From contig JAENZP010000005.1 in assembly GCA_016841205.1 (NCBI GenBank), forward strand, positions 62,001 to 126,000: a stretch of DNA of 64,000 bases. Reading direction: 5' to 3'. The position numbers and the translations under genes were made by a program. The notes under the pieces were generated by a model, which was not told the origin of the DNA, did not search any database, and was given only the letters and a program-made list of their open reading frames with translations. Below, piece by piece: positions 46,450 through 53,834 of this stretch; position 1 is the first letter of the stretch, and each line of letters begins with the position of its first letter. The DNA comes from Desulfoscipio geothermicus. Its GTDB lineage: Bacteria > Bacillota > Desulfotomaculia > Desulfotomaculales > Desulfallaceae.

Positions 46450-47040
46450 TCATGTCCCGAATTTCCATTTCAATACCTCACCGGGCTTGGGAGGCCGCTC
46501 TTTTTTCTGCTCCGTAGTACCCTCTCCCGTACTGACCGTACCTTCAACGAAGGTTTTATATTTTTTATCCAGATTTATCTCACGCTGTACGGGCTGCCCC
46601 TTCTCCGCCTGACCATTATCGGCACCGGACTGGTTAAATGGTTGAGCAACCCCACCCATGCCCAATAGCGGTCCCAGCAGGCTAAATAGTGCGGAAAGGT
46701 CAGGCCCACCACCCTTACCCTGGTTCCCTCCCAGTACACCACTCAATATGCTCAATAACGCCGCCGGGTTAAAAGGGCTCTGCCCCTCACCTACGGTTCC
46801 CCCCTTACCCATACCTGAAGCCATTAAAGCCATGAGCGGTCCTAGTAATGCTTTCATATTTTCAAGACCGGTAGTCCCGGCACCTATAGCGCTATTTTCC
46901 CCCTCGCGATTTAGTACATTAACCATGCCCATTAGGTTAAGCAAGCTAATCATAATTAAAATACTATCGTCATCCACCTTGTGCTCGGACTGATAATCCA
47001 ATATTTTAAACAATATCTTTTCTATTTTATTATCATCCAA
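46450..47040 (-). CDS. Hypothetical protein, paralogue of the gene at 47733
   Basis: 196 residues. N-terminal helices DNKIEKILFKILDYQ, then VDDDSILIMISLLNLMGMVN, then a Gly/Pro/Leu-rich middle (MALMASGMGKGGTVGEG, LLSILSGVLGGN) and a charged tail ending VLKWKFGT. The first 45 residues match the N-terminus of the 47733 product, with the shared pattern ending in NLMG and then N-x-L. I know of no named family. TTG start behind AAGGGGTG. Sporulation context only. Confidence 0.65.
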   Translation of the reverse strand: MDDNKIEKILFKILDYQSEHKVDDDSILIMISLLNLMGMVNVLNREGENSAIGAGTTGLENMKALLGPLMALMASGMGKGGTVGEGQSPFNPAALLSILSGVLGGNQGKGGGPDLSALFSLLGPLLGMGGVAQPFNQSGADNGQAEKGQPVQREINLDKKYKTFVEGTVSTGEGTTEQKKERPPKPGEVLKWKFGT

Positions 47041-47152
47041 TTTTTAAACACCCCTTTTACTATCGGGTTTGCCATTAAGTAACAATCCGCCGAACATTCA
47101 CATAACATATTTCATACTGTATTTTAAATGATTAAACGAAAGGAGAATTATT

Positions 47153-47623
47153 TTGAACCGCTCACCGTTAGGCTTGCGAGAAATGTTTCCTCTATTTATT
47201 ATGATAATGCTGGGGGAGCAAAACCTAGAACCCTGGATGCGCCGGGTAATTGACATGATTAATGGCGCTCAAAATACCGTCAAGGAAATGCAAAGGGGTA
47301 TAGAAATGATGCACAGTGCCGTTTATCAATTAATGATGCCCCCCGAAAGCAATGGACCCCAGCAACCCGTGATTGAGTTCAATAATAATCCACCAGCAGA
47401 TGAACAGCCACCGGTGGATCAATCCCATTACTCAAACGATAAGAAACCCGGTCAAAAAACCATTCTGGAACAACCCATGACTAAATGGACTGATAAGCAA
47501 TCAGCAACTCCGGAAGACACCAATTGCAAACCAACACCGGACACCAGTGAAATAAACAGCACAACAGTGATCCAAAAGCCCCCATCGCTGCTCCCCGCCG
47601 AAATGCACCCAAAAGGCAACTAG
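47153..47623 (+). CDS. Hypothetical protein between two paralogues
   Basis: 156 residues starting at TTG behind AAAGGAG. N-terminal half is hydrophobic and helical (LREMFPLFIMIMLGEQN, WMRRVIDMINGAQNTVKEMQ, MMHSAVYQLMMPP); the C-terminal half is polar, rich in Pro, Gln, Asn and Ser, without recognised domain. It is divergent from the 46450 gene and faces the 47733 gene tail to tail. Unknown function. Confidence 0.6.
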   Translation: MNRSPLGLREMFPLFIMIMLGEQNLEPWMRRVIDMINGAQNTVKEMQRGIEMMHSAVYQLMMPPESNGPQQPVIEFNNNPPADEQPPVDQSHYSNDKKPGQKTILEQPMTKWTDKQSATPEDTNCKPTPDTSEINSTTVIQKPPSLLPAEMHPKGN

Positions 47624-47706
47624 TAGCTATTACCCCAATTAGCTCCGGCAAAGCCGGTTTAGCCTTGCTGCAGCGGTATTGCCGCAGCAACTTACCATTT
47701 AGCAAG

Positions 47707-47738
47707 CCAGGACGGCCTCCAAGCCGCCCTTTTTATTT
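47707..47738 (+). terminator. Terminator of the 47153 gene
   Basis: GGACGGC and GCCGCCC pair with one mismatch around CTCCAA, then TTTTTATTTTT on the plus strand. Confidence 0.75.
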
Positions 47739-47984
47739 TTGAGTGCTATCAGCCGGCACCCTGACCTTGGGACCACCGAACATACCCAAAAAAGGCACCA
47801 TTTCCTGGTGACGGCTGGCACGGCTTCCCTGTGTACAACCAGCAGCTCGCACCTCCAACAGGTTAATAATACCCATTAAATTAACCAGGCCCATTAACAA
47901 TAAAAATTTGTCATTATCAAGATTATGCTTGCCTTTTATTTCCAATAATTCTATTATTCTTTTCTCCAAGCTATCATCGAGCAT
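47733..47984 (-). CDS. Small hypothetical protein, paralogue of 46450
   Basis: 83 residues from the ATG at 47984 (GGGTGG upstream). SLEKRIIELLEIKGKHNLDN and DKFLLLMGLVNLMGIINLLE match the N-terminal half of the 46450 protein; the rest, ending GMFGGPKVRVPADSTQK, is different and shorter. It follows the YbaB-like gene in the same direction, so the pair is probably co-transcribed. Family unknown. Confidence 0.65.
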   Translation of the reverse strand: MLDDSLEKRIIELLEIKGKHNLDNDKFLLLMGLVNLMGIINLLEVRAAGCTQGSRASRHQEMVPFLGMFGGPKVRVPADSTQK

Positions 47985-48001
47985 AATATTTACCACCCTT
48001 A

Positions 48002-48298
48002 TTAAATCAAACCCGGTACAGTTGGGATAGCCAAACCGCCCGTTAACTTAGAAAATTGCTCACGCACCATTTTCTTGGATTCTCGCATACCCTCGTTAAA
48101 AGCCTCCGCAGTCAACTGGGCCAACTGAGCAGGGTCCTGCAATAAATCGGGTTTGAAGTACAGCTGCACCACCTCCTGATTGCCGTTTATTACTAGCTGC
48201 ACCGATCCCTCACCCGCGCTTACTTTTACCGTCATATTTTTCAGCTGTTCCTGTAGTTCCTGAACAAGCGGCATGAAGTTACCCATATTGTTCATCAT
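48002..48298 (-). CDS. YbaB/EbfC-like nucleoid-associated protein
   Basis: 98 residues with the YbaB pattern: VQELQEQLKNMTVKVSAGEG, VQLVINGNQEVVQLYF, AFNEGMRESKKMVREQFSKL and TGGLAIPTVPGLI. The standard ybaB lies near dnaX/recR in Bacillus; this is a second, divergent form whose N-terminus is shorter. GGGGG precedes the ATG. Seventeen bases separate it from the 47733 gene. Confidence 0.85.
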   Translation of the reverse strand: MMNNMGNFMPLVQELQEQLKNMTVKVSAGEGSVQLVINGNQEVVQLYFKPDLLQDPAQLAQLTAEAFNEGMRESKKMVREQFSKLTGGLAIPTVPGLI

Positions 48299-48439
48299 AG
48301 ATTTTCCCCCTTCGTTATTAAACTCTTATCAAATATATGCCTAAAAAGTTAAAATAGTTTATATAACAAATAGCAATAAATTCCTACAAATAGGCATGCA
48401 TAAGCCAGGTATTAAATATGTTTCCTTGAAAGACCGACT

Positions 48440-48508: not shown

Positions 48509-49615
48509 TTAGCCCTGAGTAAATTGTTCGTAATACTGGTTTTGTACCCTCATGCATTCAAGCTTGACATTGTCGATAACCACAGCACTGGTATTCAAAG
48601 CGTTGGGCTCAAAGATAAATCTTACCAGAGCTTCCCGGGCCTCCTCTGGGGCAGTAGCATTGAAACAGAAGTTAGTAAACGCATTGTCTGTTATCTGCCC
48701 GGCATTCCAGCTTCTTGTTTCACCGTTCACCAGGTTGCCATAAATATCATAGAACAGCAATTCCGCCGTTAAGTTAAAGGAAGCCGTCCCCCCTAAAACC
48801 TCCCTAAAACCTGGAACCTCTTCCACATCAAAGCACAGCCTGTATTCCGCGGTAGGTACAATATTACCTTGCCGATCAATGCTCTGGAACAAGGAGGCCT
48901 CCACATTGGGGATGTTACCAAGTAAAGCACCGCTGTTATAGCGCAATACATTACCAGCTCCCCAGAACACCGGGGTGGTATTGGTGCCCCAGACATCAAA
49001 GCTGCCGTCTTTAAGCAAGTTGACACCCCGGGCGCACTTGCGGTCTAACTGCGGGCAAACCTGCACGAAAATCTGCCTTTCCTCCACTACCTTGACCTGG
49101 AAAATCATTATCCCTGTCTGCTGCAACCGGGAGCCCCGGCGCAGTTCCCAGCGCATATCGATCATTTTGTGGTGCAGTTGAATTACTACATCTTCCTCAT
49201 TCACTACAGGCTGAGCTACATCCAGTGTTACATCCTTGGCAAAAGGAATATCCTCACCCACATGCTTGACGGTGTCATTTTTATCCACATAATAAATCTG
49301 CTTGTGCAGTGTACCGCTTACCAACACCTTTTTCACCACAGGCAGGCGGTGCTCCGTAAAGTGCCAGCCAAAACGTTCCCAACCCTCTTGCTCAATGGTG
49401 CTGATCCAGCGATTACCGTCTTCGTGTACAAATATCGGCCGGGCTTCAAAATTATTTAGCCGGGCATCTATATGGTCAATTTTCTGGGCCAGCTCGGGCA
49501 GAGCGGCTATATTATCTACAATCACCTGCACTTCATCTTCCGCCAGAACCACCGGAACCTTTATTTTTACGCACAAAACATTATCAGGCTCGCTGTAGAA
49601 ATATTGTATAGGCAT
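48509..49615 (-). CDS. SPOCS (DUF3794) protein with carbohydrate-binding-like C-terminus
   Basis: 368 residues. Residues 60-200 have SPOCS-like features (KKVLVSGTLHKQIYYVDKND, DVTLDVAQPVVNEEDVVIQL, QIFVQVCPQL). Residues 205-360 form a beta-sandwich of the CBM4/9 or galactose-binding type: VNLLKDGSFDVWGTNTTP, VEASLFQSID and SAVVIDNVKLECM. The combination suggests a spore-surface protein binding sugars. It follows the LysM-SPOCS gene in one transcript. Confidence 0.75.
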   Translation of the reverse strand: MPIQYFYSEPDNVLCVKIKVPVVLAEDEVQVIVDNIAALPELAQKIDHIDARLNNFEARPIFVHEDGNRWISTIEQEGWERFGWHFTEHRLPVVKKVLVSGTLHKQIYYVDKNDTVKHVGEDIPFAKDVTLDVAQPVVNEEDVVIQLHHKMIDMRWELRRGSRLQQTGIMIFQVKVVEERQIFVQVCPQLDRKCARGVNLLKDGSFDVWGTNTTPVFWGAGNVLRYNSGALLGNIPNVEASLFQSIDRQGNIVPTAEYRLCFDVEEVPGFREVLGGTASFNLTAELLFYDIYGNLVNGETRSWNAGQITDNAFTNFCFNATAPEEAREALVRFIFEPNALNTSAVVIDNVKLECMRVQNQYYEQFTQG

Positions 49616-49638: not shown

Positions 49639-51177
49639 TTAACCCATGGCCCCGCAGGGGATCTTAATGACCTGGCCAACTTGAAGATTATTAGCATTTA
49701 TCCCCGGGTTTTCGGCCAGTATCATATTCACGGTGGTGCCGTAACGCTGGGCTAGATTAAAAAGCGTATCACCGGACTTGATGGTATAATCAATTACCTG
49801 GCCAACGGGGCACTCTACCTCTTCTTCCACAAGCTCGGCGCATACAGACCGACGCATTGTTTCGGTAACCCGGACCCTGACCTTAATGACTGCCTCGATA
49901 TTGACATCGCAGTCCTGGGCTTCGGCGTTGATATATTCCACCGCAGGTTTGACATTCATATCCATGCCGTTGACGGCTCCTTTAATTTCCACAAAGGTAC
50001 GGAAATTAAGCCGCTGGTGCATGGCATGCACCGCTTGGTCCGGTTTTGCGGATACGTAGACAATTTTAACATCTACATAACCCTTGGAAATTACCTTGTC
50101 TTTTATAATTTTCTTTTCAGTTATTTTAACTTCCTCTATGGATACATTGAGCACCTTTTCCGGGCACGGTTTAGGTTCAGGGGTTTCAAAAGTTTCCCGC
50201 ACCACTACCTGGGAAGAGTCCTCGCCAATTACATGCTCAACATTCAACTCGATAGTTTTCACCGTAGCGCCGACGCATTCGGTAACGACCCTGACATCCC
50301 TGGGCTCGGTAACCCGGGCATCCAGTCTTACCACACAACTCGCGCTGAAGAATGGATCACCTTTAATTTCAACATCACAGTCTTCCACCACTGCATCTAC
50401 AACCACATCCATTTCCGGATTAGCCCCTGGCACCTCTACAAAAGCAGTAAACTTAATTGTTTTGTGCATATCATGCACGGACTGTTCCGGCACCGCACCC
50501 ACATACATAATCTGCAGAGTTAATTCGCCGTCAATGATCACCTTATCTGCGACAATGCGTGTATCTGTAACCATGACGGTGGAATCCACGTCCAGTATCT
50601 TTGCCGGCTCCGGTTTTTCATCTGGTTCATCAAAATCTTCGCTTACAATTACCTGACTGGATTCCCGGCCAACCACGTCATCAATATGAATCACATCATA
50701 GTTGGCATTCATGTTGTCCGGTGCTTGAGTGAGCACTTCAACGTCCTGGGTCTCGGTCACTTTGGCCGATACATCCAGCACCGCAATCACATCATACTGC
50801 CGAACATCCCTACTGCTAGGATTAAGTTTGACATCTTCCACCGCGACATCCACTTTCACATCCATGCCGGGCAATGCACCCGGCAAATCAACATAGGCGG
50901 TAAAAGGAACCTGCGCATGCATATGGTGTACGGACTGTGCTGGTTCGAAAGCCACGTATACAATTTGCAAAGTAAGTGTTCCATCGACCACTACTTTATC
51001 AGGCAAAAGTCTGGTCTTTTTGACACTGGCTGTTTTATCCGTGGAGATAATCTGTTCCACGTCCGGTTTGGGGTCAGGTATCATGAATGTCCCACGTACC
51101 ACAGTTTGCTGGGAATTTTCACTGACCACTTGATTTACGGTAATAGTTTCCTTAACTGGTGTCTGGGCAGCAACCAT
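49639..51177 (-). CDS. Triple SPOCS-domain protein with C-terminal LysM
   Basis: About 512 residues. Three tandem SPOCS (DUF3794) repeats (residues 12-150, 160-300, 305-445), each with a strand such as [40 protein letters not shown], and a closing VxVRVTET-like strand; then a LysM near residues 462-507 ([18 protein letters not shown]). SipL/SafA-type spore-coat proteins carry this combination. The ATG at 51177 follows AAAGGAGGAG. Repeats two and three differ from one in charge at the same sites. Confidence 0.88.
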
Positions 51178-51208
51178 ACAATCTCCTCCTTTCATGAGAG
51201 TTCTATAA

Positions 51209-51236
51209 TAATATATGAGGGAATGTCTAAAATGTG
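51209..51236 (-). promoter_or_regulatory. Possible SigK promoter of the SPOCS operon
   Basis: On the minus strand CATATATTA (51209-51217) fits the sigma-K -10 pattern CATANNNTA and an AC lies 16 bases upstream. About 32 bases from the start codon. The match is short and could be chance. Confidence 0.35.
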
Positions 51237-51345
51237 CAGACAATATTGTCTATCTATAAAAATTAAAAAAAAAGGCCTTTTTAGTCCTTCTTAATTTTTT
51301 AACTATGACTGAGTAGCTACCTGCTGGTACAGACAGCCAAAATTG

Positions 51346-52879: not shown

Positions 52880-53758
52880 CTAATAAGGGGAACGAGGAAC
52901 TCCCATGCGGTATCTGCCCCTGGTTTCCATACCACCAATACCGTCAAAACCGGTTATTGTGCTAGTAATGATATCCTGCAGGCTTATGGGATCATAAATG
53001 GATGTGAAGGAAATTTTTTCCACAACAAACACCGGGTCAAAGGCATGGATCAAAACCCGTTGGGGAGAACTAGCAAAATTGGCTCCGGCCCCAAGCAGGG
53101 ACTCATAATGGGACTGACAAGCCCCGGCAAATATTACCAGGTCATCCCGGCTTTTTTCATAACGACGGGCTTCTTTCACAGCGGCTACGAAATGGCTGGA
53201 GTTGTAGTAATTATTGATATCTGAAAAATCCTTGGTACCTTTTACAAAGCCGTCATGACCGGTAAGCACCAGTAAATCAGGACGGTGCTCTACCAGAAGA
53301 TTATATACTTTTTGCGCCTGCTGATTTTCCGGGATATTAAGACCATCAGCAGGTATTTGCAGCTGACGGTATGTGGTCATACATAAATCAAGATAATCAC
53401 CGTCGCCATCAATGTGCAATACCCGCCCCGGAACATCAAAACCTTCCATTTCACCTTTTTCCTTACCAGGTACCGACCGCATCAAAAACGTTTCCCGGTC
53501 TTTTTGACGGCGCATATAAACTCTGCGCATAGCCTCGTGGTTTTTGGTCATGGTCATCCGCCAGTAATCCGCCAATTTATTTGGTTCAATTTTAGCCAAA
53601 TCGTCTAGCGGACTATTTGCACAAAGCCGCATATCCAGACCCTTTAAGCGGGCTATTCGCTTTTCATCATCATCCTCGCAAATATCAATCACCTTAAAAT
53701 AAATATCCAGTCCGTATGACTTTCGCCCTACTATATCACCAACTTTTATGTCCAGCAT
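52880..53758 (-). CDS. yabG: Sporulation-specific protease YabG
   Basis: Cleaves coat proteins late in sporulation in Bacillus. 292 residues with KVGDIVGRKSYGLDIYFKV at the start, GRVLHIDGDGDYLDLCMTTY, LLVLTGHDGFVKG with the candidate catalytic His, IFAGACQSHYE with a Cys and RVLIHAFDPVFVVEKI. The ATG at 53758 follows GGAGGGG. Its place between rsmA and ispE is conserved. Confidence 0.95.
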   Translation of the reverse strand: MLDIKVGDIVGRKSYGLDIYFKVIDICEDDDEKRIARLKGLDMRLCANSPLDDLAKIEPNKLADYWRMTMTKNHEAMRRVYMRRQKDRETFLMRSVPGKEKGEMEGFDVPGRVLHIDGDGDYLDLCMTTYRQLQIPADGLNIPENQQAQKVYNLLVEHRPDLLVLTGHDGFVKGTKDFSDINNYYNSSHFVAAVKEARRYEKSRDDLVIFAGACQSHYESLLGAGANFASSPQRVLIHAFDPVFVVEKISFTSIYDPISLQDIITSTITGFDGIGGMETRGRYRMGVPRSPY

Positions 53759-53834
53759 CAATCAGCCCCTCCATTGTTTTTCTACATCTTATGAATTAGT
53801 AGGGCAAAGGTGTGAATTTACGCAAAATAAAAAT

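Follow-up and report, generated by a model that had tools for sequence, protein, structure and literature searches.

A conserved cluster of YbaB-family and unnamed helical-protein genes linked to sporulation in Desulfoscipio geothermicus and other Bacillota

Introduction

Among small proteins linked with sporulation, the YjcZ type comprises tiny hydrophobic proteins. Outside the Bacilli, with their SafA, SpoVID and CotE, spore coat assembly is poorly explained, and the sections of the source drawn on here report that these three proteins were not found in clostridia (PMC3533761). In the mycobacterial ESX-1 system, a YbaB-type domain is predicted in EspL, which the relevant sections of one report propose to be a chaperone stabilising EspE, EspF and EspH, a direct effect on the transcription of these three being ruled out there (PMC6319747).

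Here we describe a cluster of four small genes from Desulfoscipio geothermicus that brings together a YbaB-family protein, helical proteins without a named family and a spore-envelope neighbourhood. It lies in a window of 64,000 nucleotides, by which we mean the whole stretch of DNA analysed, and was picked out in a preliminary description made from the sequence.

The locus and its neighbours

All four open reading frames (ORFs) were found at the positions that the preliminary description had given them, and the spore-envelope genes it had placed alongside were also recognised. We use the name HEL for the family that carries a common helical block of some 45 residues, and DIV for the divergent gene in the middle of the cluster. 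The genes are as follows.

46450-47040, minus strand: HEL-long, 196 aa; helical block, then a Gly-rich stretch, then a tail ending EVLKWKFGT
46453-46479, minus strand: KW tail of HEL-long (EVLKWKFGT, C-terminal), found in variant forms in many long relatives
47153-47623, plus strand: DIV, 156 aa; hydrophobic head, long amphipathic helix and polar tail
47733-47996, minus strand: HEL-short, 87 aa; start more likely at 47984
48002-48298, minus strand: second YbaB-family protein, 98 aa (PF02575)
48509-49615, minus strand: SPOCS-type protein (context); SPOCS match below the Pfam cut-off
49639-51243, minus strand: SPOCS and LysM protein (context), from domain matches
52880-53761, minus strand: YabG spore protease (context)

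Gene order is mostly kept in the loci of 20 relatives and the window. It begins with YabG, a Nal1-like gene, an unknown gene, the SPOCS/LysM and SPOCS-type genes, YbaB and HEL-short; continues with DIV on the opposite strand, HEL-long, a heavy-metal-associated (HMA) domain protein and YdcZ; and ends with a ZIP transporter, a LysM L,D-transpeptidase, ispE-like, GntR, MobA-like and SpoVG-like genes (ispE, MobA and SpoVG being named by eye). In Bacillus the corresponding stretch contains veg and sspF. The arrangement of the cluster recurs in families beyond that of the window, more than chance would give.

Some loci hold additional genes. In three of them from family f3 (L061, L062 and L063), three extra genes separate the cluster from the HMA gene, and the one tested, from L062, encodes an S8 subtilase (PF00082). 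In distant loci another type of small protein (...KPFLSPRGQ..., KPFLxxxGQ-like) occurs near YbaB or HEL, in some cases with NPFALFLILILLLF; five of the six examples below were searched against Pfam and NCBIfam, and none of the five gave a match.

L111:6471-7034: KPFLxxxGQ-like small protein
L115:7548-7949: KPFLxxxGQ-like small protein
L116:8789-9136: KPFLxxxGQ-like small protein
L118:6655-7050: KPFLxxxGQ-like small protein
L122:5865-6158: KPFLxxxGQ-like small protein
L130:5798-6223: KPFLxxxGQ-like small protein

The HEL proteins

The products of the two genes flanking DIV had been proposed to be paralogues with a helical block in common, and this is borne out: with HEL-short as the query, residues 6-71 match HEL-long of the same genome with an E-value of 2.2e-7 and 29% identity. 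The block motif reads as it had first been given, as DDDSILIMISLLNLMGMVNVL and DNDKFLLLMGLVNLMGIINLL. Alignment of the family reveals a single common block, consisting of LExxLxxLLE, a short acidic turn and LLxMLSLxNLMGIxNxL. The true start of HEL-short is more likely the ATG at 47984 than the start of the ORF, since the former agrees with the MP... starts of its orthologues.

The HEL proteins of the window belong to no family in Pfam, NCBIfam or PHROG, their best Pfam matches being weak and under the cut-off; the same libraries hold no family for DIV, in line with the initial view that no function could be named for these genes. When 38 HEL members were compared with Pfam only two stray hits were obtained, each to one member, the better at 1.2e-4, and a profile of the block found no match among PDB sequences. 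In the structural model of HEL-long (mean pLDDT 60), helices span residues 3-20 and 24-48 with local pLDDT of about 80, and the remainder of the chain forms short helices, at low confidence, followed by a loose tail.

The KW tail was sought with one regular expression, which leaves out clear variants such as SWDSRLG. It was found in 37 of 83 long HEL rows (120 aa or more) and in 0 of 23 short rows, and is missing from most of the distant relatives. Elsewhere the expression matched 2 of 2081 ORFs, one of them the gene at the DIV position in Desulfallas sp. Bu1-1 (L074:9501-9893, minus strand). The product of the latter ends NNLKWDFPVQP, and its resemblance to the HEL-long tail may mark a common docking partner. 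A DNA-level pattern search of the window's own genome for the tail gave a single further match, which lies out of frame within a hypE-like ORF.

The distant HEL proteins that were read are mostly 140-200 aa in length and carry Gly-rich or NPALL-like stretches after the block. Two HEL genes are present in 18 of the 41 loci described below, with extra copies in L121, L122 and L129, and paralogue pairs therefore recur. A degenerate HEL-like ORF in syntenic position (L128:6404-6964, plus strand) matches the block poorly and retains a CWDPRLAG tail.

HEL and sporulation

HEL-short had matches (E-value 0.01 or better) in 46 of 60 relatives. A profile search of contigs, with a 12-row alignment and one peptide pattern, yielded 13 HEL loci, those named to genus coming from Desulfotomaculum, genera near it and Desulfovirgula. 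The wider distribution was assessed in 299 genomes spread over the window's phylum, with statistics uncorrected for relatedness. HEL was detected in 57 of these genomes with the full profile and in 77 with a block-only profile of 76 rows, the weakest matches of which lie near E-values of 1e-3 to 1e-4.

The sporulation gene spoIVA is present in 250 of the 299 genomes, and in 74 of the 77 with HEL. The preliminary description had suggested that finding the genes singly in non-spore-formers would speak against a role in sporulation. The survey does not refute the link; the three HEL genomes without spoIVA (G132, G288 and G334) are only 72, 75 and 61% complete, respectively. Among high-quality genomes, spoIVA accompanies HEL in 66 of 66, compared with a background of 229 of 267 (hypergeometric p 8e-6, kinship ignored), and HEL is found in none of the 38 that lack spoIVA. 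The link between HEL and sporulation is thus well supported by co-occurrence. HEL is nonetheless by no means universal, 176 of the 250 spoIVA genomes having no block match.

A second YbaB that accompanies HEL

The gene at 48002-48298 had been called a YbaB-like gene of a second type, and it is both YbaB-like and distinct. Its product matches PF02575 at 1.1e-20 and 74 bits, well above the curated cut-off of 25.5, and so belongs to the YbaB/EbfC family; against TIGR00103, the equivalog of the housekeeping YbaB, it scores 49.4 bits, narrowly below the cut-off of 49.45. Its sequence also matches the solved YbaB chains 1ybx, 1j8b and 1pug. The slot between dnaX-like and recR-like ORFs (named by eye) is occupied by the other YbaB of the genome. 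In a YbaB tree of few columns and long branches, 45 rows from spore loci are separated by one label change (SH-aLRT 92) from 31 others, these being the best-scoring PF02575 hits and the window genome's own; the protein at 48002-48298 does not group with the housekeeping YbaBs.

The consensus of the spore-locus YbaBs keeps the core and loses the basic first helix of the other clade: over the first 30 residues the mean charge is -0.07, against +1.16 in the others. Over the whole protein the mean net charge is -1.2 in spore-locus YbaBs and -5.3 in the others, and this lower acidity is no argument against DNA binding.

Five bases separate the end of the YbaB ORF from the start of the ORF at 47733-47996, a spacing from which we infer that YbaB and HEL-short are co-transcribed.

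PF02575 occurs in 291 of the 299 genomes, 57 of which have at least two copies. Such multiple copies are present in 49 of 77 genomes with HEL and in 8 of 222 others (Fisher p 1e-27, kinship ignored), leaving 28 of the 77 HEL genomes with no second YbaB. With the first HEL profile, 18 genomes had a second YbaB and no HEL. The block profile was built without any sequence of those 18, although several of them come from families represented in it; it recovers HEL in 11 (p 2.5e-9) and leaves seven.

The pairing is also evident in gene order. We compared 41 loci, chosen for HEL: relatives and the phylum search each contributed 20, and the window is the last. The adjacency figures are accordingly conditional on HEL, which the block profile fails to find in one locus, L128. 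YbaB and HEL are both present in 30 of the 41, and in 27 of these 30 they share a strand and are no more than 500 bases apart, mostly no more than 30. In four loci the order is reversed, the nearest HEL preceding YbaB. The search for co-occurrence proposed at the outset thus found YbaB and HEL kept together, and DIV too, mainly where the gene order is that of the window. The YbaB/HEL group is a conserved module.

DIV

The gene between the HEL paralogues is, as first described, unrelated to them, with a hydrophobic start and a polar tail. Its model (mean pLDDT 62) has helices at residues 12-19 and 21-61, the second being a helix of about 40 residues, followed by a loose, low-confidence tail. 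Relatives have hydrophobic heads, and those tested, like DIV itself, are without Pfam or NCBIfam match.

A single-sequence search finds DIV in 14 of 60 relatives and a profile finds it in 51 of 60. Many of the profile matches fall outside the cluster, and the window's genome has three matches; DIV was therefore left out of the co-occurrence counts. DIV is a multi-copy family. Two further DIV-like small proteins of the window's own genome are encoded at L215:3432-3659 (plus strand) and L216:3513-3740 (minus strand), one of which adjoins argC- and argJ-like ORFs. Genomes of family f3 also contain DIV-like genes away from the cluster, at L041:1447-1809 (plus strand) and L043:1438-1818 (minus strand); the former is near an ORF at L041:248-730 (minus strand) whose product, by eye, resembles an alpha/beta-type small acid-soluble spore protein. 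DIV can be lost, since a genome of the same genus (G001, L218:1948-2895) has the cluster without it, with 84 bases from HEL-short to HEL-long.

Promoters

In Clostridioides difficile, according to the sections of PMC3789822 used here, sigma-E and sigma-K promoters have a common -10 element, AC is the sigma-K -35 element, and one sigma-K site combines AC with CATATAAT. Comparable elements were located at three places in the window.

47082-47109, plus strand: sigma-K-like promoter of DIV; AC, 17 bases, CATAACATA
48331-48358, minus strand: sigma-K/sigma-E-like promoter of the YbaB/HEL-short unit; AC, 17 bases, CATATATTT
51209-51235, minus strand: promoter of the same type before the SPOCS/LysM gene, inside the longest ORF, so that the true start is presumably downstream

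Upstream of YbaB, AACTATTTT...CATATATTTG is nearly invariant in the genus, and CATATATTT is present in 13 of the 15 sequences shown. With the pattern AC-N15..18-CATAnnnT(A/T), five of seven genomes of the window's family have a match upstream of YbaB (0.21 expected), and all seven have the -10 element alone (1.35 expected). The same pattern is found within the family in four of five cases before DIV (0.29 expected), in four of seven before SPOCS/LysM (0.25 expected) and in one of seven before the L,D-transpeptidase (0.37 expected). It is absent from the 13 other gene groups of the family, including HEL-long (0/7), SPOCS2 (0/7) and YabG (0/2). Judged by AC or ATA at -35 and CATAnnnT at -10, promoters of sigma-E/sigma-K type are seen in the window's family in orthologues too. 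Over the whole window CATANNNTA is no commoner than chance (37 against 41 expected); it is the conserved positions that carry the evidence.

Outside the family, a looser pattern occurs before five of 23 leader genes, one of the five matches being inside a gene (0.73 expected). Expression of the YbaB/HEL-short unit and DIV in the mother cell is thus moderately supported for the window's family and hinted at elsewhere. At 47041-47100, before HEL-long, no sigma-K-like pattern was found; a TGTTAC-TTTATGG-like element (TGTTACTTAATGG in the window) is kept at this place in much of the family.

Proposed function and alternatives

The cluster had been put forward as an undescribed system and a component, possibly membrane or nucleoid, of sporulation. 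That the genes belong together and go with sporulation is upheld by the distributions above, the idea of a nucleoid component less so. The cluster probably helps to build outer layers of the spore. More specifically, and tentatively, we favour a mother-cell module for assembly of a spore-envelope layer, in which the YbaB-fold dimer is partner or chaperone of HEL. The YbaB/HEL-short unit and DIV would be produced in the mother cell, as would the neighbouring SPOCS/LysM gene. The YbaB-fold dimer, relieved of nucleoid duty, would bind the HEL paralogues by their hydrophobic helical hairpins, keep them soluble and carry them to the forespore surface; there HEL-long would pack through its Gly-rich helices and dock through the KW tail. 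DIV, by way of its hydrophobic head and amphipathic helix, would anchor this complex at the outer membrane of the forespore or at the base of the coat. We infer the partner or chaperone role because the YbaB and HEL genes are neighbours and remain paired where their order is reversed, and because this YbaB has left the housekeeping clade. EspL is a precedent for a YbaB-domain protein acting to stabilise its partners. Also in favour of the module are the position of the cluster beside yabG and SPOCS genes, the co-occurrence of HEL with spoIVA and with a second YbaB, and promoter elements like the sigma-K elements of C. difficile.

Several observations count against the module: the missing promoter pattern at HEL-long, SPOCS2 and YabG, the scarcity of even the looser pattern outside the family (5 of 23 leader genes), the HEL genomes with no second YbaB (28 of 77), the seven second-YbaB genomes without HEL, the spoIVA genomes without HEL (176 of 250), the lower overall acidity of the spore-locus YbaBs and the low mean confidence of the HEL-long and DIV models.

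A nucleoid function deserves consideration first among the alternatives. The second YbaB would then be a nucleoid-associated DNA-binding protein of the sporulation stage, or a local regulator, with HEL and DIV as partners or targets, a reading that the PF02575 fold, the matches to solved YbaB structures and the reduced overall acidity of the spore-locus proteins would suit. It is rather unlikely, and less supported than the chaperone role, because the gene is not the dnaX/recR copy, its product has lost the basic first-helix consensus (-0.07 against +1.16 over 30 residues) and, in the window's family, a mother-cell-type promoter precedes it; the steady pairing is, moreover, with HEL and not with DNA genes.

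The Gly-rich, low-complexity sequence of HEL-long and its envelope-gene neighbours could suit HEL and DIV as plain structural proteins of coat or exosporium, YbaB merely tuning their expression or being kept by linkage. This we consider unlikely, for the YbaB/HEL pair survives changes of gene order, is present in distant families, and a second YbaB accompanies HEL genome-wide.

It is more improbable that the hydrophobic helices of HEL, together with the head of DIV, enter a forespore membrane and form a scaffold or pore there: LLxMLSLxNLMGIxNxL is a hydrophobic stretch bearing Asn and Gly, and DIV relatives have hydrophobic heads, but the HEL stretch spans only some 17 residues, which the model places in a hairpin. 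The membrane reading would concern mainly DIV.

Finally, chance likeness of leucine-rich, low-complexity sequence, which wide profiles can catch and which the weakest block matches (E-values near 1e-3 to 1e-4) might reflect, is scarcely credible as the source of the common HEL block and, single weak distant matches aside, is rejected for the window's gene order by synteny, co-occurrence and adjacency.

A mother-cell module that accompanies sporulation in many families would supply concrete candidates for coat assembly. Taken further, to a point that we regard as doubtful, a duplicated nucleoid-protein fold may have become a dedicated assembly chaperone for unnamed helical spore-envelope proteins, belonging to the missing machinery by which spore-formers without SafA, SpoVID and CotE assemble their coats. 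If the mechanism holds, a nucleoid-protein fold would have been co-opted to build the cell envelope.

Comparison with known systems

In a search of titles and the beginnings of abstracts, no description of the cluster was found. Like the DIV relatives, the YjcZ type consists of small spore-linked proteins with a short stretch of hydrophobic residues, but DIV and the relatives tested are without Pfam or NCBIfam match. With SafA, SpoVID and CotE of the Bacilli the module would share its proposed role, an envelope layer built from the mother cell, but neither HEL nor DIV has a family match to them in Pfam or NCBIfam.

The YbaB/EbfC family (PF02575, TIGR00103) has its fold in common with the protein at 48002-48298, which differs in lying outside the dnaX/recR slot, in falling in a separate clade and in having a first helix that is not basic. 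EspL, as characterised in the portions of the literature cited above, is alike in being a small YbaB-domain protein encoded beside genes for small proteins. It serves a secretion system, unlike the protein described here with its link to sporulation; as with EspL, the YbaB gene adjoins those of its putative partners, in 27 of the 30 loci that have both.
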